Source of the DNA: Gemmatimonadota bacterium
GTDB lineage: Bacteria; Gemmatimonadota; Gemmatimonadetes; Gemmatimonadales; Gemmatimonadaceae
Assembly: GCA_026387935.1 (NCBI GenBank)
Contig: JAPLKU010000015.1
Coordinates: 1 to 64,000, forward strand
Direction: 5' to 3'
DNA length: 64,000 nucleotides
Shown: one piece after another, positions 13,659 through 56,895 of the stretch
Layout: each line of letters opens with the position of its first letter
Numbering within the stretch: position 1 is the stretch's first letter
The notes under the pieces: model-generated
Database searches by the model: none
What the model was told of the DNA's origin: nothing
Seen by the model: only the letters and a program-made list of their open reading frames with translations
Position numbers and translations under genes: made by a program

Positions 13659-13677
13659 CGGCGTTGTGGCCGCCAGC

Positions 13678-13895
13678 GGCTCGGCGCTATCGCGTGGGCG
13701 GAACACCGCCGGATGGCTCGGAAATCTCGTGTGCGCGACTGCTGCAAATACTTGGACGAGCTGAAACGACGAATCGCGCTGGGGTGGCAGTACCCCTAGT
13801 TGTTGTAGTTGTTGTCGTTCCTGTCCAGACCGCTAAGAAATCCGGGAGTACCTCCGGTTTTTTTTCCGCACCCGCGATAGCGCCGAGACCCTTGA
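13678..13895. repeat. Dispersed inverted-repeat element, copy B
   Basis: This copy lies between convergent genes. Left half (CTCGGCGCTATCGCGTGGGCGG, GCCGGATGGCTCGGAAATCTCG, GTGCGCGACTGCTGCAAATACTTGG) matches the reverse complement of copy E. The right end CGCGATAGCGCCGAGACCC inverts the core. The outer terminal repeat (GCTAGAARTGGTTTCA type) is missing. Confidence 0.7.
13842..13865 (+). terminator. Intrinsic terminator inside repeat copy B
   Basis: CCGGGAG-TAC-CTCCGG forms a short stem with one bulge, followed directly by eight T residues. It lies 184 bp after the ABC permease stop, inside the repeat element, which therefore appears to supply or host the terminator. Confidence 0.55.
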
Positions 13896-21090: not shown

Positions 21091-23475
21091 TCAGCGATCC
21101 GAGGTTGGCGCCGGCCGGGCGCGTTCCTTGCGGGACGTTGCGGGGGGGATGGGAGCGGAAATTGCGGCGCCGTTCATGACGCTCAGCTCTCCGGTGGTGC
21201 CAACAGGCACGTACGACCCGCTGGTCGTGCGCACCCGCCACTGCGCGTCAATCACGCACACGGCGGCCATGTTGACGAGATCCTGCACGTCGGCGTTCTG
21301 CTCGAGCACGTGCACGGGGTGTGCCATGCCGACCAGAATCGGGCCGATCGCCGTCGCGCCGCCAAGTGTGGTCAGCAGCTTGTAGGCAATGTTGCCGGCC
21401 GAAAGGTTTGGGAAGATCAGGACGTTCGCGGCTTCCGTGAGCTTGCTGAACGGATAACGCGCTGCGAGTTGCGCTTCGTCAAACGCGAGATCGGCCTGCA
21501 TTTCGCCGTCCACGGCGAGGGCAGGGCGTTGCTCGCGAACAATGCGGACCGCTTCGGCCATCTTTTCCGCGTGCGGATGCTTGACCGAGCCGAAGGTCGA
21601 GAAGGACAGCATCGCGATCTTTGGCACGTGGCCGAAGTTCGCAACCAGTCCTGCGGCAGAAATCGCAATCTGCGCGATCTGTTCGGCAGTGGGATCGATG
21701 TTGACCGTTGTGTCGCCGCAGAAGACGACGCGCTTGTCGAACACCAGCATATAGAGGCCGCTGGCGAGTTTGGTGACATGGTGCGCGCCGATCACTTCGA
21801 GCGCGGGCCGCACCGTTTCGGGGTAGTACTTGCCGAGTCCGCCCACGATGCCGTCCGCGTCGCCGACCGACACCATGACGCAGCCGAAGTAGATACCCTT
21901 GTAGAGGCGCTGCTCCGCCTCAGAGAGCGAAAGTCCCTTTCGCTGGCGCAGGTCGAACAGGTGTTTCGCGTACCGCTCACGGTTGGGCGACGTGCCCGGA
22001 TCCTCGATGCGAATGCCTTCGAGCGAGATGCCCCACTCTTCAGCGGTATTGCGAATCTTGTTGGTGCGGCCGAGCAGAATGGGATGCGCGATGCCCTCGT
22101 CGACGATGATCTGCGCTGCGCGCAGGACCTTGAGTTCTTCGCCTTCCGGGAAGACGATGCGCTTGGGGTCCTGCCGGGCACGGTTGACGATGCCGCGCAT
22201 GAGGCCGCGCGCGGGGCCGAGCCGGAGTTCAAGAGTGTCGCGATAGTGCTCGAGGTCGATCATCTCGCGCGCGACGCCGCTGGCGACGGCAGCCCAGGCG
22301 ACGGCCGGTGCCACCCAGAGCAGCGCGCGTGGATCGAACGCAAACGGGATCAGGTATTCCGGTCCGAACTTGACTGACGAAAGTCCGTAGAGTTGGGCGA
22401 CATTCTCCGGCACGTCCTCCTTGGCCAGCGCCGCGAGTGCACGCGTGGCGGCCATCTTCATTTCCTCGTTGATCTCGCTGGCGCGAACGTCGAGTGCGCC
22501 GCGGAAGATGAACGGGAAGCCGAGGACGTTGTTCACCTGGTTCGGAAAATCACTGCGCCCAGTGGCGACGATCGCATCGCTGCGCACCGCGCGGACTTCG
22601 GACGGCAGGATTTCAGGGACCGGATTGGCGAGGGCAAAGATGATCGGCTTGGGGCCCATCGTCTTGACCATGGCCTGCGACATGGCGCCGGCGGCGGAGA
22701 GGCCGACAAAGACGTCGGCGTCCTTCAGCGCTTCCTCAAGCGTCCGGTCGTTCGTCTTGAGCGCGAACCGGGCCTTGTACGGGTCCATTCCCTCAGTGCG
22801 ACCCTCGTAGATCACGCCCGAGCGATCGCACATCGCGAGATGCTCGCGCCGCACGCCGAGGCGCACATAGTGCTCCGCGGTGGAAATCGCCGCGGCGCCA
22901 GCGCCCGAAAACACGACCTTCACCTGGTCGATGTCCTTGCCGACGACTTCGAGCGCGTTCAAGAGCGCGGCGCCGGAAATAATGGCGGTACCGTGCTGGT
23001 CGTCGTGGAAGACCGGAATCTTCATGGTCTTGCGCAACGTTTCTTCGATGTAGAAGCAGTCTGGGGCCCTGATGTCCTCGAGGTTGATGCCGCCCACCGT
23101 GGGCTCGAGGAGCTGGCAGAACTTGATCACGTCGTCAGGCGACTCGGACCCGACTTCGAGGTCAAAGACGTCGATGTCAGCGAACTGCTTGAAGAGGTTG
23201 GCCTTGCCTTCCATCACCGGCTTGCCGGCGGCCGCGCCGATGTTGCCAAGGCCGAGGACGGCGGTGCCGTTGCTTACAACGGCGACGAGATTCCCCTTGG
23301 CCGTGTACTTGTAGACGTCATCGGGGTTGTTCTTGATCTCCAGGCACGGCTCTGCCACGCCCGGGGTGTACGCCAACGCCAAATCACGCTGGTTTCCCAG
23401 CGGTTTGGTGGGGACGACGGCGATTTTGCCGGGGCGGCCGCGCGCATGATAGTCCAGCGCGTCTTCACGTTTCAT
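21091..23475 (-). CDS. maeB: NADP-dependent malic enzyme with phosphotransacetylase-like C-terminal domain
   Basis: A 794-residue MaeB-type protein, typical length. Residues 1-430 are malic enzyme: '[13 protein letters not shown]', '[15 protein letters not shown]', '[20 protein letters not shown]' (metal Asp), '[12 protein letters not shown]' (Rossmann NADP site) and '[10 protein letters not shown]'. Residues ~430-770 are a phosphate acetyl/butyryltransferase-like domain, considered regulatory (acetyl-CoA-responsive) in this family: '[20 protein letters not shown]', '[14 protein letters not shown]', '[12 protein letters not shown]'. Together with PckA it balances malate, pyruvate and PEP. TAAATT lies 9 nt before the ATG. 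Confidence 0.95.
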
Positions 23476-23558
23476 AGGCGGGGAAATTTAGCGCCTTGAC
23501 GGTGTTTTGGTCGCTCGAGATTCGGGTTTCTTTCGGATACCGCTTTCCGGCTGTTCGC

Positions 23559-23801
23559 TCAATGGTGCCGCTTCCACTCGCTGCCGTTGCGAGCGCTCGG
23601 CCGGGGTCTCGGCTTCATGGGTGATCGGATGAACGCGAATGGGGCGAATCGGGCGAATGGGTCCTGCGGGCAGTATGGACCAGCCTGTAGAATCGGGGTT
23701 CGGGCCCGAACTACTGATAGGCCGATCTTGTTATACGCGTCGTAGAACGCGCCGATGACGGAATGCGTCAGTTCCCGCTCAAGGAGTTCGTCGTTGCCCA
23801 T
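23559..23801 (-). pseudogene. Truncated GxxExxxY-family gene
   Basis: ATG 23801 begins 'MGNDELLERELTHSVIGAF' followed by 'YDAYNKIG', the N-terminal signature of GxxExxxY proteins (PDDEXK_3 nuclease-like family, about 120-130 residues). After residue ~28 similarity stops: the family's 'G.LE..Y' segment and nuclease core are missing, and the frame runs out through a repeat. It is therefore a remnant with an internal or 3' deletion, enclosed in the inverted repeats at 23592-23945. Confidence 0.65.
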
Positions 23802-23945
23802 CCGGCACGATACATCGTACCGGTCCGACCCTCGCAATCATGCTGTTGCAGTTCCAATCATTTTGCTGTTGTCGTATCCGCCTCATTCGCTCCATTCGCG
23901 TTCATCCGATAATTCATAAAGCCGAGACCCTGGCCAAGCGCTGGC
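23592..23945. mobile_element. Inverted-repeat element carrying the GxxExxxY remnant
   Basis: About 60-bp imperfect inverted repeats flank the remnant. The left arm is at 23592-23652 (GCTCGGCCGGGGTCTCGGCT, then ATCGGATGAACGCGAATGG). The right arm, 23881-23945, reads on the other strand GCTTGGCCAGGGTCTCGGCT, then ATCGGATGAACGCGAATGG. The arms share the word GGTCTCGGC with the other dispersed repeats. It occupies most of the 160-485-bp gap between maeB and the metal permease. No transposase is present. The gap 23476-23558 shows nothing further. Confidence 0.65.
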
Positions 23946-23961
23946 AGAGGAGTCCAGTCGG

Positions 23962-24801
23962 CTATGCCCGTTTTCTCACCGCCACAAACACGTTCACCAG
24001 TGCCAGGGCCACGCCGCAGGCCGCGACGATGGCCGCGCCGGTCGGCAGGTCGAGGCGATACGAAGCCAGGAGGCCGCCGAGACTTGCCAGCGTGGCCACG
24101 AGCCAACCGATCACCAGTCTCGACGTCCACGACTTGCCCAGCATCACCGCACAGACAGCGGGAACGATCAGATAGGCGAAGGTGAGCAGGACGCCGGCGA
24201 CGCGAACAAAACTCACCACGACGAGCGCGAACGCGGCGTAGAAGAGAAAGTCCCAGAGGTGCACGCGCATCCCCTGTTTTTCGAGGGCTTCGCCACCTTC
24301 GGAAATAAGGGCGAACCGGCGGTGAAATGCGCCGTAGAACCCGGCAAGTACGGCAAACAGGAGGGCGCGTTTGCCGACATCGCCGCCGGTCACATTCAGG
24401 ATATCGCCGGTAAGGAGGTGTTCCAGCTCTTCCTTGCCGCCGGATACACGGCTGAGCAGCAGGATCACGCCGGCGGCAGCCACCACAAAGGTGATGCCGA
24501 TGATGGCTTCCTGTGGCACCGAGTGCTGACGACTGCCGCGTGACCAGCTGAAGAGCGCGGCGCCAACGAAGGTGACCGCCAGCGACAACCAGAAAGTGAT
24601 CGGGTCGTCAAAGTGGTAGCCCATGATGAGCGACACGCAGGTGCCGAGCGCCGCCATCTGTGCGAGCGCCAAGTCGACGAAGATGACTTCGCGTTCAATG
24701 ACGTGCAGCCCGAGATAGACGAGCAGCGGCGGAAGCAGTAGGCAGGCCGCGAGCGGCCACTTCATGACCTCCCAGACGACACCCCAATCAGTCGGGTTCA
24801 C
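23962..24801 (-). CDS. Metal (zinc/manganese) ABC transporter permease, ZnuB-like
   Basis: A 279-residue ABC-3 family permease with about eight hydrophobic helices. It contains 'GREVIFVDLALAQMAALG'-like text (here 'EREVIFVDLALAQMAALG'), 'GDILNVTGGDVGK' and 'RVAGVLLTFAYLIVPAVCA', which carry the family's conserved TM glycines. GTG 24801 overlaps the binding-protein stop (GTGA), so translation is coupled. It would form the membrane channel for divalent metal taken from the periplasmic binding protein. The ATPase normally encoded next to it is missing from the locus and window. Confidence 0.85.
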   Translation of the reverse strand: MNPTDWGVVWEVMKWPLAACLLLPPLLVYLGLHVIEREVIFVDLALAQMAALGTCVSLIMGYHFDDPITFWLSLAVTFVGAALFSWSRGSRQHSVPQEAIIGITFVVAAAGVILLLSRVSGGKEELEHLLTGDILNVTGGDVGKRALLFAVLAGFYGAFHRRFALISEGGEALEKQGMRVHLWDFLFYAAFALVVVSFVRVAGVLLTFAYLIVPAVCAVMLGKSWTSRLVIGWLVATLASLGGLLASYRLDLPTGAAIVAACGVALALVNVFVAVRKRA

Positions 24802-25748
24802 TTCGCTCCTCCGAGTGCCTTGGCGAGCGTGCCAACGAGGTTGTCCATCATCGCGATGTAGCTGTCGGTGTTCTTGGTAGCGCCGGGTTGCTCCGGCATG
24901 TCGAGTACCGTGGCGTCCGTCTGGCGGGCAACGGTCTCCGCGGTTTTCCGGTTCTGAAAAGGCTGCACGAGGATCACCTTCACGTTGTTCGACTTCATCG
25001 TGCCGATGACCTTGGCAAGGTGCGCCGGCGACGGTGCGATGCCCGGTTTCGGCTCCAGCTCCTCGACGATGTTCAGGCCGAACCGTTCGGCGAGGTACAC
25101 GAAATCCTTGTGATAGGTGGCAATCTTCGCGCCCTTGTACGGCGCGAGCAATTTCTGCCACTCGGCCAGCTTCAGATCGAGCGCCGCCTCGAACTTCTTG
25201 CGGTTGGCGGCGAACATCGGGGCCGATTGTGGATCCACCAGCGAGAGGTGCTCCGTGATCTGCGCGATCACGAGCTTGACGCGCACCGGATCGACAAGGA
25301 AGTGTGGATTGCCGAGCGAGTGGACGTCGCCTTTGGCACGATCGAACGTGGACGGAACTTCCATCATCTGCACGCCCGCTGATGCGCTGATTCGGCCGGG
25401 AGAACCGGCGGCGATCTTGTCGTTGCGCGCGCTCTCGAGCAGGGCCGGCAACCACCCGAGTTCGAGCTCAGCGCCGCCGTCGATAAGAACGTCAGCGCGG
25501 TTCAGCGTCACGATATGGCTCGGCTTCGCGTCCACGAAATGCGGATCTTCAGTGGGCTTCGCGAGCGCCTTCACATCCACGGCATCCCCGCCGATCTCGC
25601 GGGCGAGCGAGGCCAGGTCTGGCGTGGTGGCGACGACGCTGAGTTTCGCGCGCGCCGGAGGTGCTGGAGACGCCGGAGGAGCGGTGATCGGCACTGGAGC
25701 CGCAATTGCTGCGGCAACCAGGATTTGGAACAACGGAAGGATCTTCAT
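24798..25748 (-). CDS. Metal ABC transporter substrate-binding protein, ZnuA/TroA-like
   Basis: A 316-residue cluster A-I periplasmic binding protein with a signal peptide, followed by a Pro/Ala-rich stretch. Metal-ligand positions are visible: 'TEDPHFVDAKPS' (first His), 'LGNPHFLVDP' (second His), 'ATYHKDFVYLAERFG' (third His) and an acidic residue near 'QPGATKNTDSY'. The His-rich loop typical of ZnuA is absent, so zinc versus manganese is open. It precedes the permease with a 4-bp overlap and follows the outer-membrane protein gene by 18 bp. Confidence 0.85.
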   Translation of the reverse strand: MKILPLFQILVAAAIAAPVPITAPPASPAPPARAKLSVVATTPDLASLAREIGGDAVDVKALAKPTEDPHFVDAKPSHIVTLNRADVLIDGGAELELGWLPALLESARNDKIAAGSPGRISASAGVQMMEVPSTFDRAKGDVHSLGNPHFLVDPVRVKLVIAQITEHLSLVDPQSAPMFAANRKKFEAALDLKLAEWQKLLAPYKGAKIATYHKDFVYLAERFGLNIVEELEPKPGIAPSPAHLAKVIGTMKSNNVKVILVQPFQNRKTAETVARQTDATVLDMPEQPGATKNTDSYIAMMDNLVGTLAKALGGAK

Positions 25749-25766
25749 ATGAAGGCTGTTGGATAT

Positions 25767-27119
25767 CTAGAATTTGTGAGCAGCGTGTGCGCCGAGCAGG
25801 AACTCGAACTGGAACCAGAGCGAGTGATCCTCGCCGATACCCGTGCGATGGTCGAAGTTGTACTGCACGCGAAACTTCGAAAACTCGGTGGGATACCACG
25901 TGAGGTTCGGTGACCAGCGCGTACGATCGGCGCGGTCGGCGGAGACGAACGTCGATTTGTCGGCGTGGGCAAATTCGCCGCGGAATCCGGCGACGATGCG
26001 TGGCTGGATGCCCCACAGGATCTGCGCGTATGCGCCGTCGTCCTTGAGGGTTTGCGCCGCGAGCTGCGGAACAGCGGTGCCGGGGGGCCGTGGCGCCTCG
26101 AGGTCTTCGACAGCAGGGCGCTTCGCCGCATCGTAGTGACGGAAAATGTATTCGCTCTGCACGGATACGAACGGAAAGCCCTGGTCAGCGTGCGTGGATT
26201 TCCATTTCCAGTAGAGATCGCCGCCGTAGATCTTCGTGCTGGTGTTCACGCCGGAGTTATTCGGGCCAAACGCGCCTGAGGCCCCGAGCACCAGCGTCTG
26301 CGTGTCATTGAGCTCGAACGACGTGGCGACACGCGGGACGTAGAGCATGTCGCCGAGATCCTTCACCTGCCGGTCAAGCGCAGCGCCGCCGTGGATCAAT
26401 CCAGACTCCTCCGACCGAAAGCTCGACGCCGCACCGCCCGAACTGTTCAACACGGCAAGGCTGGCTTCCGTGTAGAAATCGGTCGGCAAGAGCCAGGAGA
26501 GTCGCACACCCTGGCTTCGGAGTCCGTCTGGCCCGAACATCCGGTTGAGCACGAGTGGCTGATCGGCGAAGCCCCACGAGTGCGGGTGCTGCGGATTCTG
26601 GCGGCCGAACTCCGCGAAAAACTGCCCGACCTTCAGCTGCAGGTTTGCCGGCAGCGCGGTTGTGAGCACGAACATCTCTTCGAGCTCAACACTCGTCTCG
26701 CCATTGTTGTCGAGTTTGTACACGATGTTCGTGACGCCCTTGAAGTAGGGGTCGACCGCACCGTCAAGTGAGAGTTCCGCGTTGCGGTGAGAAAACCCGC
26801 GAACCTTTGGATCGTGATCGCCCTTCTGCAGCGATTCGACATCGGGTGTCGACGACCAGCCGAAGTCGGTCAGCCCAACGAAGCTGACGTTCATGTAGGC
26901 GCCCGAGGTACGGACGGGCGCCGCGGCCGTTGACGCCGACGCACGGGCGTGCTCGAGGCTGTCCATCCGGGCCTGCAGCGTGCGCAGGGCGGTGGCCAGG
27001 GAGTCGAGGGCGCGCTGCTGGCGCCTGGCGGTCGTATCGGATGCCTGCTGTGCGCCAACTGACGTGCTCGTGAGCACGGCGGCCGCGACGATAGTCGCGA
27101 CCAGATGATTCGGTCTCAT
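25767..27119 (-). CDS. Predicted outer-membrane porin-like protein of the metal locus
   Basis: A 450-residue protein with a signal peptide (ending VGAQQ), a short coiled coil ('LATALRTLQARMDSLEHA') and a long beta-strand-rich region ('ELSLDGAVDPYFKGVTNIVY', 'NLQLKVGQFFAEFGRQNP', 'YNFDHRTGIGEDHSLWFQFE') like a phosphate-porin/zinc-regulated outer-membrane channel. No plug domain is seen. Lying between a Cys/His-rich protein and ZnuA/B on one strand, it probably lets metal or a metal chelate across the outer membrane, which is inference. AGGAG lies just before the ATG. Confidence 0.6.
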   Translation of the reverse strand: MRPNHLVATIVAAAVLTSTSVGAQQASDTTARRQQRALDSLATALRTLQARMDSLEHARASASTAAAPVRTSGAYMNVSFVGLTDFGWSSTPDVESLQKGDHDPKVRGFSHRNAELSLDGAVDPYFKGVTNIVYKLDNNGETSVELEEMFVLTTALPANLQLKVGQFFAEFGRQNPQHPHSWGFADQPLVLNRMFGPDGLRSQGVRLSWLLPTDFYTEASLAVLNSSGGAASSFRSEESGLIHGGAALDRQVKDLGDMLYVPRVATSFELNDTQTLVLGASGAFGPNNSGVNTSTKIYGGDLYWKWKSTHADQGFPFVSVQSEYIFRHYDAAKRPAVEDLEAPRPPGTAVPQLAAQTLKDDGAYAQILWGIQPRIVAGFRGEFAHADKSTFVSADRADRTRWSPNLTWYPTEFSKFRVQYNFDHRTGIGEDHSLWFQFEFLLGAHAAHKF

Positions 27120-27172
27120 ACGCTCCTGGCTTCAATCTGGTTTTCCGGGCGGCACGGTGCCGCCTCGGCGAA

Positions 27173-27535
27173 TCAGGACTGAACGGAGGGCGGAGCTCTG
27201 GCGTGAAGGGGAGACGCTTCCGCGAATGCTGCGGCGGTGTACGTCTTCGGCGCGATGGCAATCGCCAGGCGCGGCGCGTCTAACGTCGGCTCGGGGAGTG
27301 TCGGCAACGAGCTCTGTGCGCGCGCCGAGCAAATGATGCACGTCGCTTCGTTGTGCGAGTCGACGTGCCGCGTGCCGTCCTGCTCTGTATGGAGCCCGAG
27401 CTTCAGCTCAACGCGCGGTTCCCAGAGGGCTGACCCTGCCAATGCCGCCTGCAGCGCGAACACGAGCGCGCCGAGAATACGGCGCGCCCCTGGACGGGCC
27501 AAGCGGCGAAGGCGACGGGCGGAAATCATGGTCAT
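27173..27535 (-). CDS. Small Cys/His-containing membrane-anchored or exported protein
   Basis: A 120-residue protein with a basic N-terminus and one hydrophobic segment ('ILGALVFALQAALAGSALW'), then 'LHTEQDGTRHVDSHNEATC' leading into CIIC. The H...H....CxxC spacing suggests a metal site, resembling DUF2946-type proteins found in metal-regulated operons. It is first in the leftward metal-uptake series. ATG 27535 (or 27529) is preferred. TAATTA and the palindrome GTAATTAC lie 10-20 nt upstream and could be a -10 or an operator for a Fur-family regulator; this is weak. Confidence 0.5.
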   Translation of the reverse strand: MTMISARRLRRLARPGARRILGALVFALQAALAGSALWEPRVELKLGLHTEQDGTRHVDSHNEATCIICSARAQSSLPTLPEPTLDAPRLAIAIAPKTYTAAAFAEASPLHARAPPSVQS

Positions 27536-27563
27536 GTACTCTACGTAATTACCCCGATGTCCG

Positions 27564-28646
27564 TTAGGCGTTGGCGTCCGCAAACCCCCGGAGCATCCGG
27601 AGCATCCTGCGGTCGTTGGTCACCATGTCATCGCCCTTTGGCGTTTCGAGGACCTTGGCGACATGCCCCAGGCGCGGCTCGTTGATGATCTTCGCGAACG
27701 GGCCTGTGCCGATGGAGCCGTCTCCGATGAGCTCATGGCGGTCCTTATGCGAGCCGAAGGGCGTCTTGGAATCGTTGAGGTGCAGGCAGCCAAGGCGGTC
27801 GAGCCCGAGGATGTCGTCGAACCTGGTCCAGACGCCAGCGAAATCGTTCACGAGGTCGTAGCCGGCCGAGTAGAGATGGCAGGTGTCGAGGCAGATGCCG
27901 ATGCGCGCGCGAAGGGCGGCGGGGACCTGATTGAGCAGGTCGGCAAGCTCTTCGAAGCTGGATCCAATCACCGTGCCCTGCCCAGCGGTGCCTTCCATGA
28001 GGAGGCGCGTGGGGCCGGGGTGCGTTTCGAGCGCCTGTGTGATGCCGTCAGCGTTCCGCGCGATGCCGCTCGCTCGGTCATCAATAAAGTTGCCCGGATG
28101 CGAGACGAGCGCGTCGAGGTGGAGGATGTTGCAGCGCTCGATTTCGCGCGAAAAGCTGTCGATGGACCGGTCGCGAATTGCCGGATCAGGCGACGCGAGG
28201 TTGATCAGGTAGCTGTCGTGCGAGGTGGTGAACTTCACGCCACTCGCGGCGAGCGCTGTGCGAAACACCACCGCCTCGTCCGCAGTGATCGACGGCTCCT
28301 TCCACTGGTTTGGCGTCTTCGTGAAGATCTGCATCGCGGTGGCGCCAATCAGATCGGCGCGAGGCGGTGCTGCGGCCGCTCCACCTGCAGTCGAGATGTG
28401 TGCGCCGAGTGGCGGGCCGGCGTACGGCGGCATCGCGCCGAGGGGCGCGACGTCGTATGGCTTGGCCTTTGAGATTGGCCTGCTTGCGTCAGGCTTCACC
28501 GACTTTGAACGACGATTTACGCGGAAACTGGCGGATTTCTTTTTGGGGGCGCGCTTCGACGGGGCCCGCGCAGGGGACTTCTTAGGCGACCTTTTCAGCG
28601 CTTTCTTCTTCGCGGCGCCCTGCTTCACGACTTTCTTCTTCGCCAT
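27564..28646 (-). CDS. nfo: Endonuclease IV with lysine-rich N-terminal tail
   Basis: A 360-residue protein whose last ~285 residues are the AP endonuclease IV TIM barrel: 'PPLGAHISTAGGAA', 'IGATAMQIFTKTPNQWK', 'TSHDSYLINLASPD', 'LHLDALVSHPGNFIDD', 'LLMEGTAGQGTVIG', 'GICLDTCHLYSAGYD', 'LHLNDSKTPFGSHKDRHELI' - the nine metal ligands are largely visible. It cuts DNA at abasic sites in base-excision repair. The first ~75 residues are an added tail rich in Lys, Pro and Ala, like histone-H1-type tails, probably for DNA binding. ATG 28646 overlaps the zinc-ribbon stop (TAATG). Confidence 0.92.
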   Translation of the reverse strand: MAKKKVVKQGAAKKKALKRSPKKSPARAPSKRAPKKKSASFRVNRRSKSVKPDASRPISKAKPYDVAPLGAMPPYAGPPLGAHISTAGGAAAAPPRADLIGATAMQIFTKTPNQWKEPSITADEAVVFRTALAASGVKFTTSHDSYLINLASPDPAIRDRSIDSFSREIERCNILHLDALVSHPGNFIDDRASGIARNADGITQALETHPGPTRLLMEGTAGQGTVIGSSFEELADLLNQVPAALRARIGICLDTCHLYSAGYDLVNDFAGVWTRFDDILGLDRLGCLHLNDSKTPFGSHKDRHELIGDGSIGTGPFAKIINEPRLGHVAKVLETPKGDDMVTNDRRMLRMLRGFADANA

Positions 28647-28852
28647 TACTCGATCCCTGTTGTGCGTCCGCGCAGGCGCAGGCCACAGCGCGGACAGTGG
28701 AGGTCGTCGCCCATCTCGGTGAGCGCGTAGTCGTATGCGCGGCCGCAGCTGCACGCATCCTCAAGCCCGTCGTGGCCGCAGCCGATGCAAAACGTGTCGT
28801 CGGCCTCGTAATCGCGGAATCGGCGGCAGGTGGCGCACCGCTTGACGGTCAT
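28646..28852 (-). CDS. Zinc-ribbon protein (68 aa)
   Basis: A 68-residue protein with four CxxC-type pairs: 'CATCRRF', 'FCIGCGHDG', 'DACSCGRAY', 'LHCPRCGLRL', enough for two zinc ribbons or knuckles. The function is unknown. Its ATG overlaps the EnvC-like gene stop (ATGA) and its stop overlaps nfo's start (TAATG), so it is translated within the ftsEX-envC-nfo chain. A nucleic-acid or protein adaptor role is possible from the fold alone. Confidence 0.75.
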   Translation of the reverse strand: MTVKRCATCRRFRDYEADDTFCIGCGHDGLEDACSCGRAYDYALTEMGDDLHCPRCGLRLRGRTTGIE

Positions 28853-30063
28853 CGGTTCGCGCGAAGCCAGCCGAGGGGGTCCACCGCGCGACCGTTGGGA
28901 CGGATTTCGAAGTGCAGGTGTGCGGCAAGATCCGGATCCGACGTACCCACCGTTCCGATGATCTGGCCCTTCGTGACCTTGGCATTCTTGGCGACGTTCG
29001 CCTTGCCGAGCGAGCCGTACAAGGAGTAGTCGCCGGAGCCGTGATCAACAATCACCATCAAGCCGTACGTGCCGAACCGTTCGGCATATTCGACAGTGCC
29101 CGCGCTGACGGCCTTCACCGGCGTGCCTGCCGCAGCGCCGATGCCGATGCCATTCCAGCGCAGCGTCGCGTTGTTGGGATTCACAACCCGACCGAACCGA
29201 TAAAGCACGGTGCCGTCCACCGGCCAGTCGAGTTTGCCGAGGTCGCTGGTCCTGAGTGAACTGGCCGCCGGTGGCGTCGCCCCCGGACGGGCTTCCGCGC
29301 GGCGCCGTGCGTCCTCGAGCGCGGCGAGTACGCTCGTGAGCCTCGCCTCGTCCTTGGCAATCTGTGCCAAGCGCGCTTCGACCTGCTGTTGTTGCGATTC
29401 GGCCTGCACCATGCTGCGCCCGCGCTGCTGCTCCAGGGCGCGCAGCCGACGCTCCTCGTCGGCCTTCTCCTGCCGCGACTGTTCCGCGTCGTTCCGCAAC
29501 TTCACAAGCGTCTGTCGTTGCGTGCCGATCTGCTCACCAAGCGCGGTCACGCGAGTCACCAGCGTGCGGTCGCGCACCGCCACAAGGTGCAAATACTTGT
29601 ACCGCGCCAGCAGTTCGCCGAAGGAGTTCGCGGAGAGCATCGCTTCAAGCGTGAACATGCCGCCGCGTTTGTAGATCTCGCGCACGCGATAGCGAAGAAT
29701 GGCGCGCTTCACGGCGAGTTCATCCTGCGCCTGTACGAGATTCGTGGTCGCGTCGGCTGCTTCGTCGGAGATGGAGAGGATCTGCCGATCGAGCGTGACG
29801 ACCACCCGGGCCGTCGCATCGGCCTGGCGGTCGAGATTGGTGCGCTCCTCCGACAGGTTGTGCACCGTCGACTTCAGCTCACGCGCTTTTCGCTCCAGCT
29901 CGGCGCGTTCACGGCGGATGCGGTCGAGTTCCTCGCGGGGTTTGGGGCGCTCCTGTTGCGAGACGGGGGGTTGTTGCGCACCCGCCGGTGTCGCGGCGAA
30001 GGCGAACAGGATACACGCGAGGCGCGCCATGCTGGCTGCCGTGCGCCCGAGTCGCGCAGTCAC
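28849..30063 (-). CDS. EnvC-like murein hydrolase activator (degenerate LytM)
   Basis: A 404-residue periplasmic protein with a signal peptide (MTARLGRTAASMARLACILF), ~200 residues of coiled coil (from 'RERAELERKARELKSTV') and a C-terminal LytM/M23 domain. The first zinc-ligand motif is degenerate: 'LRWNGIGIGAAAGTPV' has Asn where an enzyme has His and lacks the Asp, as in E. coli EnvC. The later 'AHLHFEIRPNGRAVDP' is kept. It therefore probably activates amidases rather than cutting peptidoglycan itself, recruited by FtsEX through the coiled coil. GTG 30063 has a GGGAG site; ATG 30030 is the alternative. Confidence 0.85.
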   Translation of the reverse strand: MTARLGRTAASMARLACILFAFAATPAGAQQPPVSQQERPKPREELDRIRRERAELERKARELKSTVHNLSEERTNLDRQADATARVVVTLDRQILSISDEAADATTNLVQAQDELAVKRAILRYRVREIYKRGGMFTLEAMLSANSFGELLARYKYLHLVAVRDRTLVTRVTALGEQIGTQRQTLVKLRNDAEQSRQEKADEERRLRALEQQRGRSMVQAESQQQQVEARLAQIAKDEARLTSVLAALEDARRRAEARPGATPPAASSLRTSDLGKLDWPVDGTVLYRFGRVVNPNNATLRWNGIGIGAAAGTPVKAVSAGTVEYAERFGTYGLMVIVDHGSGDYSLYGSLGKANVAKNAKVTKGQIIGTVGTSDPDLAAHLHFEIRPNGRAVDPLGWLRANR

Positions 30064-30079
30064 GGCGCGTGCACTCCCG

Positions 30080-30928
30080 TTACACGTCCCGGAGGTGACG
30101 GCCGACGCTGAACGCGCTCCCGCCGAGGCCAATCAGCGCCCCGGCGAAAATTCCGAGGATCGAAAGGCGCAGGTCGAAGAACGCGGCACTGAACGCCACG
30201 CGTCCGATGATTTCATTCGTCGCCCAGGTGAGCAGCAGCGCCAGCACTCCGCCGAGCGTGCCCTTCAGCGAACCCTCAATCAGGAATGGCGCGCGTATAA
30301 AGCTGTCGGTCGCGCCCACGAGTCGCATGATGGCGATTTCACGCGCGCGCGCGAGGATCGCCATGCGAATCGTCGAGCCGATGATAATCACGGCGACAAT
30401 CGCGAAGGTGAGCCCCAAGGCGGTGCCGGCAAGCGTGGCGATGTTGCGAATCTGGTGGAGTTTCTCCACCCATTCTTCACCGAAGCGCACGTCTTCAATG
30501 AAGTCGTACGTCTTGATGCGGGCGGCGACGGCCCGCACATGTTCTGGATCGCGAAAGCCCGGCTTTAGCTGGATGTCGATCGACGACGGCAGGAGTCCGG
30601 CGTCGAAGACATCGTTGAACTCGCCGAGTTCCTTGCGGGCGCGGTCGAGCGCCTGTTGTGGCGTCACGAGAGCGGCCGATGCGACTTCGGGGAAGGCGGT
30701 GATATCGCCGAGCGCAGTGGCCGCCGCTTCTGACGCCGTGCCGTCGCCGAGGAAAGCGCGAATCTCCACGCGGTCTTCGAGGCGAGTGAGCGCCTGGCTC
30801 ATGTTGAGGGCGACGAGCCCGAACAGCCCGAACGCAAAGAGCGAGAAGGCGATGGTCGTGATGGAGAGCGCGTTCAACATGGGCGCGCGCCGAAAGGCCA
30901 TCACTGCTTCACGCCACGCGAGCCTCAT
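30080..30928 (-). CDS. ftsX: Cell-division ABC transporter permease
   Basis: A 282-residue FtsX with TM1 ('SITTIAFSLFAFGLFGLVA'), a ~100-residue periplasmic loop that binds the EnvC-type activator, and three C-terminal TM helices with 'RAREIAIMRLVGATDSFIR' and 'EGSLKGTLGGVLALLL'. It transmits FtsE ATP hydrolysis to septal peptidoglycan hydrolysis. ATG 30928 overlaps the ftsE stop (ATGA). Confidence 0.93.
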   Translation of the reverse strand: MRLAWREAVMAFRRAPMLNALSITTIAFSLFAFGLFGLVALNMSQALTRLEDRVEIRAFLGDGTASEAAATALGDITAFPEVASAALVTPQQALDRARKELGEFNDVFDAGLLPSSIDIQLKPGFRDPEHVRAVAARIKTYDFIEDVRFGEEWVEKLHQIRNIATLAGTALGLTFAIVAVIIIGSTIRMAILARAREIAIMRLVGATDSFIRAPFLIEGSLKGTLGGVLALLLTWATNEIIGRVAFSAAFFDLRLSILGIFAGALIGLGGSAFSVGRHLRDV

Positions 30929-31614
30929 CGTTCGCCCTGGCCGGTCATGGGTTCGTGCGAATCAAAGACGAGCTGGCCGCGGTTGATTTCCAGCGTTCGG
31001 CAGTCGGAGCGCTTCACGAGTTCAAGGTTGTGTGTGGCCATCATCACGGCCGTCCCCGTGGCATTGATGTCGCGGAGCAGTTCAAAGACACCACGCGTGG
31101 CGCGCTCATCGAGATTGCCGGTCGGTTCGTCGGCGAGGATCACCACCGGGTCGTTCACGAGAGCGCGGGCGATGGCGACGCGCTGCTGTTCGCCGCCGGA
31201 GAGTTCCGTGGGGAGCGCACGCGCCTTGGACGAGAGTCCCACCTGCGTCAACACTCGGGCGACGCGCGAGCCGATCACGGATCGCGGTGCGCCGGTGACT
31301 TCAAGTGCGAAGCTGACATTGGCTTCCACCGTCCGGTCTTCAAGCAGGCGGAAGTCCTGGAAGACGATGCCGAGTTTGCGGCGGAGGCGCGCCACGTCTC
31401 GATGTTTGAGGGTCGCAGAGCTGACGTTGGCGACCTTCACTTCGCCGCTGGTCGGAAGCTCGTCAGCGAAGATCATTTTGAGGATCGTGCTCTTGCAGGC
31501 GCCGCTGGGGCCGGTGAGGAACACGAACTCGCCCTTGTTGACCTGAAACGAGACGTCATTGAGGGCGACGCCCGTGCGCGGATATTCCTTGCGGACGCGG
31601 GTGAAGCGGATCAT
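30925..31614 (-). CDS. ftsE: Cell-division ATP-binding protein, unusual Walker A
   Basis: A 229-residue FtsE ATPase with Q-loop 'GIVFQDFRLLEDRTV', signature LSGGEQQRVAIARAL, Walker B 'VVILADEPTGNLDE' and H-loop 'MMATHNLELV'. The Walker A reads GPSGACKST: the invariant glycine before Lys is Cys40 (TGC at 31497-31495). The rest of the ATPase and the operon order ftsE-ftsX-envC-like are normal, so the gene is probably functional. The product couples septal ring assembly to peptidoglycan hydrolysis. The gene starts just after repeat copy C. Confidence 0.93.
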   Translation of the reverse strand: MIRFTRVRKEYPRTGVALNDVSFQVNKGEFVFLTGPSGACKSTILKMIFADELPTSGEVKVANVSSATLKHRDVARLRRKLGIVFQDFRLLEDRTVEANVSFALEVTGAPRSVIGSRVARVLTQVGLSSKARALPTELSGGEQQRVAIARALVNDPVVILADEPTGNLDERATRGVFELLRDINATGTAVMMATHNLELVKRSDCRTLEINRGQLVFDSHEPMTGQGER

Positions 31615-31656
31615 TGCTTCAATCTATGTTACCCCCCGTGCCATACGAGGGCCGCG

Positions 31657-31945
31657 GCTAGAAGTGGTTTCAAAGCCCATCGTGGGGTCTCAGCGCTAGC
31701 GCGACATCGGACAAGCCCCGGATGAATCGGAGACCCGCCGGATACGGCAACTGACTGGGGGCACTCCACCGACGGTGCCACGGTGCGATCCGTGGTGATT
31801 TCAAGCGGTCGTTGCAGTCGTCTTGCACGCGAACCATCCGAACCATCCGGCGGTGTTCCGCCCACGCGATAGCGCCGAGACCCCTGTCGCTCGCGCCGTG
31901 ACTCGATGCATGAAGCGTCGAGCCGGTTATGAAACCACTTCGAGC
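31657..31945. repeat. Dispersed inverted-repeat element, copy C (most complete)
   Basis: A 289-bp element between ftsE's start and the cystathionine gene's 3' end. It has 16-bp terminal inverted repeats, GCTAGAAGTGGTTTCA at 31657-31672 and TGAAACCACTTCGAGC at 31930-31945 (one mismatch), and inner inverted cores GGTCTCAGCGCTAGCGCG (~31686) and CGCGATAGCGCCGAGACC (~31865). No ORF and no transposase. The rest of the 31615-31961 gap is only short flanks. Confidence 0.75.
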
Positions 31946-31961
31946 GCGCGGGCGTGCCGTG

Positions 31962-33113
31962 TTACTTCAGCGCCTGCTCGATATCGGCGATCAGGTCGTC
32001 CGCATCCTCGATGCCCACCGAGATGCGCGTGAAGCCGTCGGGGATCCCGATGCGCGACCGCTCCTCGCTCGACATGCGGGCATGGGACGAATACCGCGGC
32101 TCGCTCACGAGCGAATCGACGCCGCCGAGGCTCGTCGCGTGCTGGATGATCTTGAGGCGGCGCAGGAACCGGTCGGCCGCCTTGCCGCCCCCGGTGAGCT
32201 CAATGGCGAGCATGCCGCCCCATCCATCCAGCATCGCCTTGGCCACGTCGTGGTCCGGGTGAGTCCGCAGGCCAGGGTAGTGCACCTTCTTGATCTCTTT
32301 CCGGTCGGCGCACCAGAGCGCGATGCGCATCGCGTTTTCATTCTGGCGCTTAACCCGCACATCAAGGGTTTTGAGGCCACGATCGAGGAGCCAGGCGGCA
32401 AATGGATCAGGCGCCTGTCCCCAGACCATCATCTTGGCCAGCACTTCGGCGATGTACGGCTCGGTGCCGCAGACCACGCCGCACATCGCGTCGTGGTGGC
32501 CGTTCAGGTACTTGGTGCCGGAATGGATGACGACATCGGCGCCATGCTCCAGGGGCCGGAAGTTCACCGGGCTCGCAAAGGTCGAGTCTACGACGAGGGC
32601 GAGGCCGACTTCCTTGGTCAGGTACGAAATTGGCCGCATGTCGAGCACGCGGCAGGTGGGATTCACCGGCGACTCCACGAACACGGCGCGCGTTTCTTTT
32701 CGGAGGTGCTTGCGCCAGGCACGCGGTTCGAACGGGTCCACGAGGGTCACTTCGATGCCGTTCCGGGTGAACTCCTCGGTCAGCAGGCGATAGGTGCCGC
32801 CATAGATGTGCGAGCTGGCGAGCAGGTGGTCGCCGGGGCGGAGCAGGGCGAGCATGGCGCAGGCCGTCGCGCCCATGCCGCTCGCCAGCACCAGCGACGC
32901 TTCGGCGCCTTCGATGAGCGCCAGCCGCTTCTGGACCTGCACCAGATTCGGCGTATTCCCGTAGCGGGTGTACAGCAGGCCGTCTTCGGTGCCCACTTCC
33001 TGAATGAAGTTCACCGACTGCACGAGCGGCGGTGCGATGGGATCGCCGGGATGACGCGCGCCAGAGCCGCCGTGGATGGCGTTCGTCGCAAGGGAGTGCT
33101 TCTTTCGGCTCAT
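31962..33113 (-). CDS. Cystathionine gamma-synthase/lyase family PLP enzyme
   Basis: A 383-residue trans-sulfuration (Cys/Met metabolism) PLP enzyme. Substrate/PLP landmarks are 'YTRYGNTPNL', 'LASGMGATACAMLALL', 'SSHIYGGTYRLL', 'VDSTFASPVNFRPLEHGADV' and the Schiff-base Lys in 'VIHSGTKYLNGHHDAM'. The C-terminal 'SLGGVDSLVSEP' and 'RISVGIEDADDLIADIEQAL' are typical. Synthase (cystathionine formation), lyase and O-acetylhomoserine sulfhydrylase cannot be separated by eye. It lies 19 bp after the small 102-aa gene on the same strand, so is the last gene of the kinase/STAS chain. Confidence 0.88.
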   Translation of the reverse strand: MSRKKHSLATNAIHGGSGARHPGDPIAPPLVQSVNFIQEVGTEDGLLYTRYGNTPNLVQVQKRLALIEGAEASLVLASGMGATACAMLALLRPGDHLLASSHIYGGTYRLLTEEFTRNGIEVTLVDPFEPRAWRKHLRKETRAVFVESPVNPTCRVLDMRPISYLTKEVGLALVVDSTFASPVNFRPLEHGADVVIHSGTKYLNGHHDAMCGVVCGTEPYIAEVLAKMMVWGQAPDPFAAWLLDRGLKTLDVRVKRQNENAMRIALWCADRKEIKKVHYPGLRTHPDHDVAKAMLDGWGGMLAIELTGGGKAADRFLRRLKIIQHATSLGGVDSLVSEPRYSSHARMSSEERSRIGIPDGFTRISVGIEDADDLIADIEQALK

Positions 33114-33132
33114 GGACGGAAAGGTACGCCCT

Positions 33133-33441
33133 TCAGGCATGGGAGGGAGTGATGAGCGGCCGCTCGGCGTCGTCGATTCGCACGAGCGTGATGATCTCCG
33201 TCACCGCCAGGCCGACAATATCGCGCACGACCACGCCGCCACGCGGCAAAGAGTCGTCGATGCGCACCGTGGCGAGGTTATGGCTGCGCGGGCCGTAGAT
33301 CCACACCAGCTCTCCTTCATGGATCGTGCGGACGTGCGCTTCGTACGCCTGCATCCGGATTTCCGGTCCGCGATCGGCGTCGGACACCCGTGTGGCAATG
33401 AATCCGATGACCTGTAACGGCGGATTGTACAGCCGTACCAT
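33133..33441 (-). CDS. Small beta-rich hypothetical protein (102 aa)
   Basis: Not firmly recognised. The 102 residues are beta-strand-rich, with 'YGPRSHNLATVRIDDSLPRG' and 'GVVVRDIVGLAVTEIITLVR' resembling the double-psi barrel at the C-terminus of molybdopterin oxidoreductases or similar small barrels. ATG 33441 overlaps the stop of the STAS-like gene (TAATG), so it is translationally coupled to a STAS/kinase-like pair. No signal peptide. Confidence 0.6.
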   Translation of the reverse strand: MVRLYNPPLQVIGFIATRVSDADRGPEIRMQAYEAHVRTIHEGELVWIYGPRSHNLATVRIDDSLPRGGVVVRDIVGLAVTEIITLVRIDDAERPLITPSHA

Positions 33442-33986
33442 TACGACGCCACACCGATCGGCGCGAAGGTGAACCCATCGCGCCGGAGCAGGCGGCGGTC
33501 GAGCAGCGCTTCGAGCACCGGCAGCACGTCAGCAGAGTTGCGGGCGCTGTCGCGCGCGAGATCGTCTACGAGATAGGTGCCGCGGGCGTGCACGAGCTGC
33601 CAGAGGACGCGTTCGTCTTCGCTTACAGCGCCAACAAGGCGCGCGGCACCATCGGCGAAGTGCACGACCAGCGCGAGGCCATGGTGGAGGAGCACGTCCT
33701 CGATGGCCTCGAGGTGTGCATCGGTGATGCCATGGAAGACGAGCGATGACGGACGTCCACCGCGGCGCGCGAGGTCGAGCAGCAGCTTCGCGACGACTTC
33801 ATCGGCACAGGAATAGTCCATCATGCCGATATGCGTGAAGTCGAGCGTGGCCACGTCATCATGAGCGAGCGACGACAGCTCGGCTTCAATGCAGCGGCGG
33901 ACCGCGGCGCCGGTGGAGCGCGTCACGAGGTCGGCATACGGCAGATTGGCTGAATGGCGGAGTACGGAACCCACGTCGATGCGCAT
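33441..33986 (-). CDS. STAS-like (DUF4325-like) protein, 181 aa
   Basis: Starts at ATG 33986, overlapping the previous stop (TGATG). The first ~110 residues look like a STAS/DUF4325 domain: 'VATLDFTHIGMMDYSCADEV' has the anti-anti-sigma pattern of a buried strand leading to a Ser-containing loop ('MDYS'), followed by a helix. The last ~60 residues ('HARGTYLVDDLARDSARN...LLRRDGFTF') resemble a winged helix. With the STAS-HATPase protein encoded just before, it could be a partner-switching regulator; the target sigma or effector is not in the window. Confidence 0.6.
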   Translation of the reverse strand: MRIDVGSVLRHSANLPYADLVTRSTGAAVRRCIEAELSSLAHDDVATLDFTHIGMMDYSCADEVVAKLLLDLARRGGRPSSLVFHGITDAHLEAIEDVLLHHGLALVVHFADGAARLVGAVSEDERVLWQLVHARGTYLVDDLARDSARNSADVLPVLEALLDRRLLRRDGFTFAPIGVAS

Positions 33987-34873
33987 CACGCGGCCGATTT
34001 CTCCGGAATCGTGATTTGCAGCTGGGCGCCCGCGAAGGGTGCCAGGTTGTCGCGGCGCGGGACGTCGTCGTCCCACGGCGGTACGAGGGCGATTCTTGCC
34101 GTTCCGCTTCGCACGGAGAGCTTGCCGTCCCATCGATGCACATACCCCCGGATTCCCTTCAGGCCCTGACCGCGGCCCGGGTCTCCATAGCGGCTGACGC
34201 CATTGACGACGGCGGTTTCGAGCGCAAAGCCGTCGTCCCATCGGTCGGTCAATGGGCGGCGGGGGCTCGACTCCAGCGAACGGCGGAATCCAAGCCCGGC
34301 GTCGCACACTGCAATGACAACTGCATGACGACCGCCGAGCCGCTTCCGATACTGATAGACCTGGACCATCACCCAGCCGCCGCGACCGGCATGCTCGACA
34401 ATGTTCTGGCAGGCTTCTGAGAGGGCCATGGTAAAGCCCATCGTCGCGCGGGAGATGAGGTGCAGCCGGTTGGTGAGGATCTGTGTCGCCTTGTCCTTGA
34501 TCCGCTCAACCACGGTGTGCACGTCATCGCTCTTCACGACCGGTGTGATCTCAAGGAGCACATCGCTCTCGCTGGTGGATCGCGGGCGCGGGACCGAGCC
34601 CTGCACATCATAGACTTCTTCGGCGTAGCGGAAGAACCCCGCGCGCGCCCAGTAGGTGAGTTTGTCGGCGTCTTCGGGCGGGAGAAACGCCGGGCGCTCC
34701 GAACGCGTCTGCGCGAGCGTGAGGAGGGCGGTAAGTCCGTAGGGCGACGCGAACGTGCAGTGGCGCGCGTCGACAATCACCTTGGCGTCTGCCGGATGTG
34801 CCGCGAGTTGGTCGAGCACGAGCTCGAACGACAGGTCGTCCAGCGACGACGGCACAGTGATGACGGCAGTCAC
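33986..34873 (-). CDS. STAS + HATPase (anti-sigma-kinase-like) protein
   Basis: A 295-residue cytosolic protein. Residues 1-90 resemble a STAS domain ('KVIVDARHCTFASPYGLTAL'); residues ~120-290 are a GHKL ATPase with N box 'GFTMALSEACQNIVEHAG', G1 box 'VCDAGLGFRRS' and G2 box 'DPGRGQGLKGIRGYV'. No HisKA phospho-acceptor or sensor region is seen, as in RsbW-type serine kinases. The gene starts at ATG 34873 overlapping the sugar-kinase stop (ATGA) and its stop overlaps the next STAS-like gene. The joined STAS and kinase domains, normally separate proteins, suggest an internally regulated switch, which is inference. Confidence 0.75.
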   Translation of the reverse strand: MTAVITVPSSLDDLSFELVLDQLAAHPADAKVIVDARHCTFASPYGLTALLTLAQTRSERPAFLPPEDADKLTYWARAGFFRYAEEVYDVQGSVPRPRSTSESDVLLEITPVVKSDDVHTVVERIKDKATQILTNRLHLISRATMGFTMALSEACQNIVEHAGRGGWVMVQVYQYRKRLGGRHAVVIAVCDAGLGFRRSLESSPRRPLTDRWDDGFALETAVVNGVSRYGDPGRGQGLKGIRGYVHRWDGKLSVRSGTARIALVPPWDDDVPRRDNLAPFAGAQLQITIPEKSAA

Positions 34874-35865
34874 GTGGAACTCAGCTCTCCCCGGAGATAG
34901 TGTGCGAGGCCCGTGGCTCCGCGATGCTCAACATTTCGCGCCGCGGCCTGCATCGCCGTCTGTAACGCGTCAGTAATGATATCATCAGCAAGCAGTCGCG
35001 AGAAGAACGTCGCGCCCCAAACATCACCGCATCCGGTTGGGTCGCCCCCTTGCGCATCGCGCGTGGTTGCTGCAGGAACCAACGCCGTACGAACCGGTCC
35101 GGGACTTGCGCTCAGCGCATGGAGACGTCCGGAGTCCAGGTGCTGGAGCCGCGAGAAGGACGGCTGCGCGAAATACACGGCGCCGCGCGGCCCCAGCGTG
35201 ACGACGAGCGCGCTCACGCCGGAGGCCAGCGCTGTCGCAGAGAGGGCGAGCGGGTCGGCCGCCATCATCGACATCTCGTCTTCATTCACCTGAAGAAAAT
35301 CGACGCACCGGCACCACGCGGCCGCGTCCGGAACGGGCCGGAGCGTGCGCATGCCGTCTTCCTGCAGCGCGAGCGAGAGCGAATGGAGATCACAATAGAT
35401 AGGACCGCGGAACTGGCGACGAATCAACTGCATCGTCTCGAGGTCCAGTTCCCATCCGCTGATGAGATTCACGTACAGGGCGTCCAGGTCCTTCAGTAAT
35501 GGCGACAACCCGGCCCAGGTCCAGCCTGGCACGCCACCAGTCAGCACTTCGGTGCGCCGTTCGGCGTCCTTGTACACCAGCTCGACGCGATTGTTGGGGT
35601 ATGGCACCGCGATCGGCGCGGCATCTGGCGCCATACGCCGCAGCTGACGGAGAAAATCGTTGGCGCGCGCGGCAAGGTCCTCGCCGACCTTCACCAAGGG
35701 AACGAGTTCCCAGTCGTTCGGAAGCGCCGCGTCAAATGCGGAGAGCGCATAGGTGATGCCGCCCCACTCCTCAATCGGCGCGCGGCCCGGCACCTGCGAG
35801 TCGCGCCCGTGAATCCTGTCCCAGACGAACGTGCCGATCACACCGACGCGGCGGCGGCGCGTCAT
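34870..35865 (-). CDS. PfkB-family carbohydrate/nucleoside kinase
   Basis: A 331-residue ribokinase (PfkB) family protein: 'VGVIGTFVWDRIHG' and a di-Gly hinge 'EEWGGITYALSAFDAALP' at the front, a mid-domain 'FLQVNEDEMSMM', and the anion hole plus catalytic Asp in 'GGDPTGCGDVWGATFF'. It phosphorylates a sugar or similar alcohol using ATP in the cytosol; the substrate is unknown. It heads the chain of coupled genes to 31962, and repeat copy D lies immediately upstream, so its promoter must lie within or beyond the repeat. Confidence 0.82.
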   Translation of the reverse strand: MTRRRRVGVIGTFVWDRIHGRDSQVPGRAPIEEWGGITYALSAFDAALPNDWELVPLVKVGEDLAARANDFLRQLRRMAPDAAPIAVPYPNNRVELVYKDAERRTEVLTGGVPGWTWAGLSPLLKDLDALYVNLISGWELDLETMQLIRRQFRGPIYCDLHSLSLALQEDGMRTLRPVPDAAAWCRCVDFLQVNEDEMSMMAADPLALSATALASGVSALVVTLGPRGAVYFAQPSFSRLQHLDSGRLHALSASPGPVRTALVPAATTRDAQGGDPTGCGDVWGATFFSRLLADDIITDALQTAMQAAARNVEHRGATGLAHYLRGELSST

Positions 35866-35887
35866 AGGTTTGTCATCGCGCGCCTGG

Positions 35888-36186
35888 CCGCAGTTGCAAA
35901 ACCCATTTGAGAGGTCTCGGCGCTAACGCGTGGTGCGGACAAAGGCCGGAAGTACTGCCGGATGTTTTCGCGACAGAGCAGGGAAACGACAGCGCTTGGG
36001 GAACTACCACGACAGCGTGGGGCCGAACGGTCGTGGCGGTTCCCCCAAGTATTTGTAGTGGTCGCGCACTCGAAGCGTCCGTTCCATCCGGCAGTGGTCC
36101 GCACCCGCGATAGCGCCGAGACCTCGATCGATCGCGCCAGCCACCCAGCTCACGAAGGGTCTGGGCGGCCTCGAAACCACGTCCAG
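35888..36186. repeat. Dispersed inverted-repeat element, copy D
   Basis: About 300 bp filling the gap between the PfkB start and the ROK 3' end. Left core GGTCTCGGCGCTAACGCG at ~35914; inverted right core CGCGATAGCGCCGAGACC at ~36106; degenerate right terminus TCGAAACCACGTCCAG. The centre has GGGAACTACCACGACAGCGTG and, inverted-like, CGGTCGTGGCGGTTCCCCC, then AAGTATTTGTAGTGGTCGCGC. Shares long blocks with copy E. Confidence 0.72.
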
Positions 36187-36191
36187 GGCAC

Positions 36192-50224: not shown

Positions 50225-50270
50225 CGACAACGGACGTAGACCGTGTACCGTCTACAGAAGTGGTCGTTAC
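50221..50270. terminator. Hairpin between convergent pdxA and the CorC-like gene
   Basis: Outer arms GTAACGAC (50221-50228) / GTCGTTAC (50263-50270) and inner arms GTAGAC (50236-50241) / GTCTAC (50250-50255) form an interrupted stem that includes the pdxA stop. No T-run follows; it may act on both strands. Confidence 0.45.
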
Positions 50271-50280
50271 CTACTCCCGT

Positions 50281-56727: not shown

Positions 56728-56895
56728 CAGAACTGGTTTCGAGGACTTGCGGGAACTACCACAGCGCGAGTTCACGCAGTCGTTGCAGTTCCCCCAGTAT
56801 TTGCAATAGTCGCGCGCACGAGACTTCCGATTCGTCCGGCTGTTGTCCGCCACCCGCGCTAGCGCCGAGACCCCAGTCGTCCGCAAACGCCTGAC
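56728..56895. repeat. Dispersed repeat element, copy E (half copy)
   Basis: Between convergent genes. It has AGAACTGGTTTCGAGG at the left, the inner block GGGAACTACCACAGCGCG and GCAGTTCCCCCAGTATTTGC, GTCCGGCTGTTGTCCGCCACC, and core CGCGCTAGCGCCGAGACCCC at about 56853-56872. Only one core is present, so it lacks the inverted left core and outer right terminus. Confidence 0.7.

Follow-up and report, generated by a model that had tools for sequence, protein, structure and literature searches.

Inverted Repeats around GxxExxY Genes: A Gene Relic between Paired Arms in a Gemmatimonadota Genome and Its Armed Relatives in Many Phyla

The repeats analyzed here have their closest described counterpart in the RAYT-REP/REPIN system, in which a small gene is accompanied by many dispersed, intergenic and gene-less palindromes that carry the same end sequence and form inverted doublets. 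A comparable architecture, in which inverted ends bound a compact element carrying a single small ORF, characterizes the IVS of 23S rRNA with its S23/IVP four-helix bundle protein. Dispersed short-word repeats are also known in the form of the STRR heptamers of cyanobacteria. TAACTGA heptamer repeats have been described in Beggiatoaceae, Cyanobacteria, and Bacteroidetes, a study that reports no evident transfer mechanism (PMC4679880). The protein family that concerns us, GxxExxY (TIGR04256; PF13366), is named for its motif only and is mentioned incidentally in the papers found; family-model accessions or the IVP protein name occur, for instance, in PMC9756366. Within the open-access papers searched, we found neither a description of an element combining a nuclease gene with word arrays nor the name GxxExxxY, and the repeat-word strings returned nothing beyond an eDNA fish study.

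We have analyzed a window of 64,000 nt (positions 1 to 64,000 of contig JAPLKU010000015.1, assembly GCA_026387935.1) from a Gemmatimonadota bacterium of the family Gemmatimonadaceae. The longest inverted repeat detected in this window, among those with arms no more than 2.5 kb apart, comprises a left arm at 23588-23658 (plus strand) and a right arm at 23876-23946 (minus strand), the latter delimited by inverted-repeat detection together with matches in the same genome. The arms are 85% complementary over 71 nt and separated by 217 nt, so that the inverted repeats around a gene start that a preliminary description had reported are real. The element, which we call family A, is not inside a 23S rRNA gene but between two protein ORFs, labeled from reading their translations as malic-enzyme-like (21091-23475, minus strand) and znuB-like (ending at 23962, minus strand). 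Folded as single-stranded DNA, the segment 23580-23955 reaches -105.6 kcal/mol, whereas 100 dinucleotide-shuffled versions give -65.4 ± 3.7 (z = -10.7), and no Rfam model matched positions 22000-37000 at gathering score.

Between the arms, the minus strand retains 27 codons (23721-23801) encoding MGNDELLERELTHSVIGAFYDAYNKIG, which alignment to an intact gene on contig C21 identifies as the start of a GxxExxY protein; since the relic ORF alone matches no Pfam or NCBIfam model, its GxxExxY identity rests on this alignment. Compared with the C21 element, about 250 nt of the gene's middle are missing, after which its 3' end resumes (minus strand, approximately 23660-23712). The gene had been considered broken after some 28 residues: its short start stands, but the relic, as the alignment shows, is the product of an internal deletion with the 3' end kept, which is more than a truncation.

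How does this relic relate to intact genes? A search of the same genome with positions 23560-23980 recovered, at C21:6762-7398, an intact GxxExxY gene between the same arms, and thus the intact copy with the same ends that the preliminary description had suggested looking for. It also returned a gene-less palindrome with family A arms (C18:245900-246040), a diverged pair of such arms (C25:41455-41652), and a half copy (C23:78770-78825). The left arm of the window element recurs at all four places and in the congener G132, where an intact GxxExxY gene lies within family A arms (C45) and the arms match at two further places. Among 18 genomes of the genus, the arm part of the query was matched only in G000 and G132; G096 and G084 gave short matches that lie within its gene part. 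The comparison with relatives, proposed earlier as a check, shows that the window site is without the element in G114 and G132, the two congeners in which both flanking genes are matched side by side. We regard the window element as, on balance, the miniature and non-autonomous form of a small mobile element, the movement of which would be driven by the nuclease encoded in its complete copies.

A second family of repeats, family B, is recognized by the head GGTCTCGGCGCTATCGCG, which with up to three mismatches occurs at nine sites in the window against 0.26 expected. Words shared between the window element and the other repeats had been proposed as a hint of a common system; GGTCTCGGCGCTATCGCG has the nine sites just given, and TCGGATGAACGCGAATGG turned out to be confined to the two arms of the window element. 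Gene-less family B palindromes with heads at both ends lie at 2343-2539, 13677-13890, 31686-31882, and 35913-36123, the last of which served as query for the genus-wide search, and a half copy with a single head (56855-56872) occupies 56746-56872 on the minus strand. Their length, measured in 20 rows covering the window plus 30 loci, is about 115-230 nt; 18 of the rows are distinct because three represent one element with a tandem head. The second intact GxxExxY gene of the genome (C2:8997-9317) is situated between family B ends. Matches in the same genome numbered 95 with this gene-bearing copy and 76 with the 35.9-kb copy, and by hand count they fall at about 40 places, about five of which match the inner part only; roughly 35 places, mostly gene-less, have the repeat itself. 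The other 17 genomes of the genus have one full copy (G141), weak partial matches in three cases, and none in 13. Family B copies fold strongly, and many, as seen by eye and uncounted, start near stop codons.

Three further features of these repeats were observed. Outside the heads of some family B copies, but not of others, lies a further inverted pair, GAAGTGGTTTCAAAACC, at a distance of about 20-80 nt (window 31664-31940 and 2519-2600; loci L023, L028, and L031). Next to the family B copy that carries a gene, the end word, beginning with GGCGCTATCGGC, is repeated in tandem at L019 (2048-2191), with about 21 nt per repeat. An inner hairpin of the type GGGAACGACAGCG...CGCTGTCGTTCCC (window 35995-36059; L335-L341) is common to family B and to the CACGGAT palindromes of G096, the arms of which differ, and is found alone at about five places in the genome studied.

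The full copies contain one gene; its product, of about 115-150 residues, is a stand-alone PD-(D/E)XK nuclease with a Cas4/RecB-like core. Three proteins of the genome studied and that of locus L268 pass the TIGR04256 model with 97-154 bits (cut-off 35). GxxExxY proteins conserve E22, D62, E72-x-K74, Q86, and Y90, with E22, D62, and K74 invariant in both alignments and E72 nearly so. An AlphaFold2 model of the L268 protein (pLDDT 94.9, pTM 0.87) was aligned by VIA-align with Cas4 SSO0001 (Z 9.8, rmsd 3.1, 95 aligned residues) and with Hjc (Z 7.3, rmsd 3.1, 83 aligned residues); because middling Z values of this kind are common, we claim only a nuclease core shared with Cas4 and Hjc. A Foldseek search of the PDB with the same model returned nothing at E 0.001 or better, sequence relatives with solved structure were absent at E 1, and the Cas4 matches of PADLOC were weak (E 0.003-0.04). 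The assignment to the PD-(D/E)XK nucleases is founded on the conservation of D and ExK within the core fold and on the matches of the model to nucleases of this fold.

All three PF13366 matches in the genome studied, which is 95% complete, have arms. A contig edge cuts the third intact gene (C15:76-411). No arm was recognized from the 75 nt to its left alone, but against the arms of a 70%-identical G132 protein its flanks score 66 and 61, compared with at most 25 against 79 other loci. Every intact GxxExxY gene of this genome thus has arms, which are of three kinds; the finding that the preliminary description had named as a refutation, intact genes lacking the flanking repeats, was looked for and did not occur. 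Across 148 genomes of the family, PF13366 is present in 101. To score arms, 300 nt to the left of the gene were aligned with the reverse complement of 300 nt to the right, a score of at least 36 being counted as a pass. We applied this test to 80 family loci, a non-random set picked by hand among the score-ranked matches listed and mostly more than 6 kb from the contig start, from which L131 and L147 were left out as too short. Spanning inverted arms were found in 34 of the 78 usable loci, versus 7/920 mismatched flanks, 2/936 intervals elsewhere, 3/899 other ORFs, and 1/335 long ORFs (1/60 for those with intergenic gaps on both sides). The other 44 loci have no spanning arms at this threshold; when palindromes on one side of the gene are also counted, the figures become 60/78 for the family loci versus 6/312 for intervals and 11/60 for gapped long ORFs.

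The association extends well beyond the family. Scanning GTDB species contigs with an LGPGLL-containing pattern and retaining the best 80 of at least 579 loci, a procedure by which the set covers one clade, we obtained a multi-phylum collection that includes two archaeal loci and from which four loci were dropped for insufficient flank. Spanning arms were present in 61 of the 76 usable loci, versus 1/912 intervals elsewhere and 2/139 long ORFs; of the archaeal loci, L211 passes with a score of 43 and L213 remains just under the threshold with 35. Mismatched flanks also score high in this set (83/901), since different phyla share words such as ACCACAGAGACACAGAG. The arms often consist of rows of two to four near-tandem short words, often of 7 nt, for example CACAGAG, CACGGAT, or GCGAAT. 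Of the multi-phylum arms, 46/122 pass a periodicity threshold, the lag being 8 or 9 nt in 42, and of the family arms 14/68 do so with mixed lags, compared with five and three shuffled arms, respectively. Chance can be rejected as the origin of the pattern: an intact gene carries the arms of the window element too, and the position controls stay at 0-2%.

In four betaproteobacterial MAGs (L205, L214, L217, and L225), as read from the sequence, the element lies just before the apparent start of trpG, a position that may reflect common ancestry or a recurrent insertion site.

Words of the same kinds are dispersed as gene-less palindromes. CACAGAG-type triplets occur in 41 of the 148 family genomes, with up to 126 pattern matches per genome versus eight in all for the backward control. 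PF13366 is present in 36 of these 41 genomes, the status of which was read by hand, and in 65 of the 107 without triplets (p = 0.0014); the five genomes having triplets with no gene detected are G030, G071, G088 (26 matches), G093, and G108. CACGGAT pairs, a shorter and noisier pattern, were found in 47 of 148 genomes, with 17 control matches of which 14 are in G084. One of the three genes of G096 has CACGGAT arms and the genome has 28 CACGGAT matches, several forming opposite-strand pairs about 110-125 nt apart; the arm of the CACGGAT-armed gene can be aligned with six solo palindromes of this genome. G062 and G112 are likewise rich in CACGGAT, and in both the gene fetched adjoins a CACGGAT palindrome; in G072 (48 matches) no such words were seen near the two of its three genes that were examined.

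Arms and proteins also vary together. The rank Mantel correlation between arm similarity and protein identity is 0.36 for the family set (36 entries) and again for the multi-phylum set (61 entries, L213 being excluded for an in-frame stop), with p = 0.0005 in each, the limit of 2000 permutations. Using a word class defined by a regular expression that was chosen after the arms had been seen, CRCNVAG-type words accompany 78 of 84 GPG-type proteins versus 4 of 13 others (p = 2e-6), and 18 of 23 versus 4 of 13 (p = 0.011) in the family loci and those of the studied genome alone. This covariation would fit recognition of the arms by the protein; plain co-inheritance of a single unit could give the same result.

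In mechanistic terms, gene and arms co-occur in many phyla, gene-less copies are lineage-specific in number, and sites can be empty: besides the window site, loci in other genera differ, in that G070 lacks a gene where the syntenic G110 and G023 carry one, and G048 lacks one where the syntenic G127 and G086 have it. What, then, moves these elements? We favor, with moderate confidence, a mobile system that resembles RAYT/REPIN and relies on a minimal nuclease of Cas4-like type. This enzyme would recognize the arms of its own element, probably in an extruded or single-stranded palindrome, and cut there, and the element would be copied into a new intergenic site, or relocated there, with no target duplication; copies having both arms and no gene would be mobilized in trans, giving rise to the solo palindromes. 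Deletion between the arms is one route to gene-less copies, as the window element shows. The preliminary description's suggestion of one mobilization system in which the nuclease takes part thus gains support from gene-less copies, empty sites, and arm-protein covariation, the nuclease-driven movement itself being what we infer. Divergence between the flanks of empty and filled loci is too great for the cut site to be fixed. In G110 and G023 a terminator-like hairpin, by eye, immediately precedes the left arm. At the boundaries of 71 loci, direct matches were not above the mismatched control, a comparison that very short duplications could escape.

One might alternatively suppose that the arrays are older and are moved or kept by something else, with the GxxExxY gene inserting into them and the words acting as its targets. 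Solo palindromes outnumbering gene-bearing copies, the five genomes that have them with no gene detected, the loci in which a palindrome lies whole on one side of the gene, and the comparable arrays around IVP genes would all agree with such homing. We nonetheless judge it unlikely, given that the arms follow the protein type and that at least one gene-less copy derives from a gene-bearing copy, the window element being a deletion of the latter. Less probable again is a fixed unit of arms and gene that does not move, in which the hairpins would serve regulation, termination, or repair and the solo palindromes would be regulatory hairpins. Its appeal lies in the strong folding of the copies and their frequent start near stop codons, but it accommodates poorly the lineage-specific copy numbers, the empty sites in congeners, and the similar units found across phyla.

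We assign the lowest probability, a slim one, to ordinary MITEs or REPINs moved by a classical transposase of DDE or Y1 type with GxxExxY as a bystander. Copy number, palindromy, and intergenic position do resemble those of REPINs (PMC3116915), and the outer GAAGTGGTTTCAAAACC pair of some family B copies might delimit a larger element. Yet the 95%-complete genome has no match to Y1_Tnp (PF01797), which the same search detected in 5 of 14 control genomes; the 71 loci show no target duplication above control; and the arms recur around the gene in the multi-phylum loci, which were found by the gene. The lack of Y1_Tnp also led us to reject membership in the RAYT/REPIN system proper, while retaining the functional analogy.

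The nuclease-based system has a possible sister. IVP genes (PF05635) are present in 120 of the 148 family genomes, and spanning inverted arrays surround them in 26 of 30 usable loci versus 13 of 870 mismatched cases; their arms are mostly tandem words with a 7-nt period (L295-L324 and L049). Because unrelated IVP genes also lie between inverted arrays, arms of this type are not unique to a nuclease. A single system for GxxExxY and IVP was considered and rejected, IVP genes having their own, mostly heptamer arms. IVP elements are a possible source of dispersed heptamer repeats. In the window, the palindrome at 50207-50284 resembles the flank of the genome's own IVP four-helix-bundle gene (C5:32711; local score 51), and from this resemblance it is probably a solo IVP-type element.

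More broadly, we tentatively envisage, with a little less than even confidence, a previously undescribed and very widespread class of prokaryotic mobile elements in which a single minimal Cas4-like PD-(D/E)XK nuclease would move both itself and gene-less palindromes via the words of the arms, words and enzymes co-diversifying in the manner of a recognition code. IVP elements would form a sister class with heptamer arms, and a large part of the dispersed short-word repeats in genomes of environmental bacteria would stem from the two together. The word-array pattern, which spans many bacterial phyla, may explain many scattered hairpin repeats. For a protein family known by its motif, the arms supply a testable substrate. 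If the nuclease does move the palindromes, this would be a transposition-like system with no known transposase, the origin of some REP-like hairpins lacking RAYT would be explained, and the natural pairs of arms and proteins would constitute a data set on how a tiny nuclease reads DNA; were nuclease-driven movement demonstrated, the enzyme class would make the system a new kind.

Compared with the systems considered at the outset, the likeness to RAYT-REP/REPIN lies in the small gene and its dispersed inverted doublets, which match the gene's repeats in family A, family B, and G096. The difference is in the enzyme, a Y1 HUH transposase there and a PD-(D/E)XK nuclease here, and in the arms, which here are often rows of short words. 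From the IVS of 23S rRNA the present elements are set apart by an unrelated protein and by their position between protein genes, the arms of IVP elements being mainly 7-nt arrays. With Cas4 and Hjc they share the predicted nuclease core and the QxxxY motif, whereas here the gene stands alone (about 115 residues in the modeled core) between inverted repeats. Finally, the TAACTGA and STRR heptamers have in common with our elements the dispersal of tandem short words in distant phyla. The TAACTGA repeats differ in forming mainly direct arrays, to which neither a nuclease nor an IVP gene is linked in the part of the study considered (PMC4679880), and a connection between them and the word-array elements is best taken as a lead.
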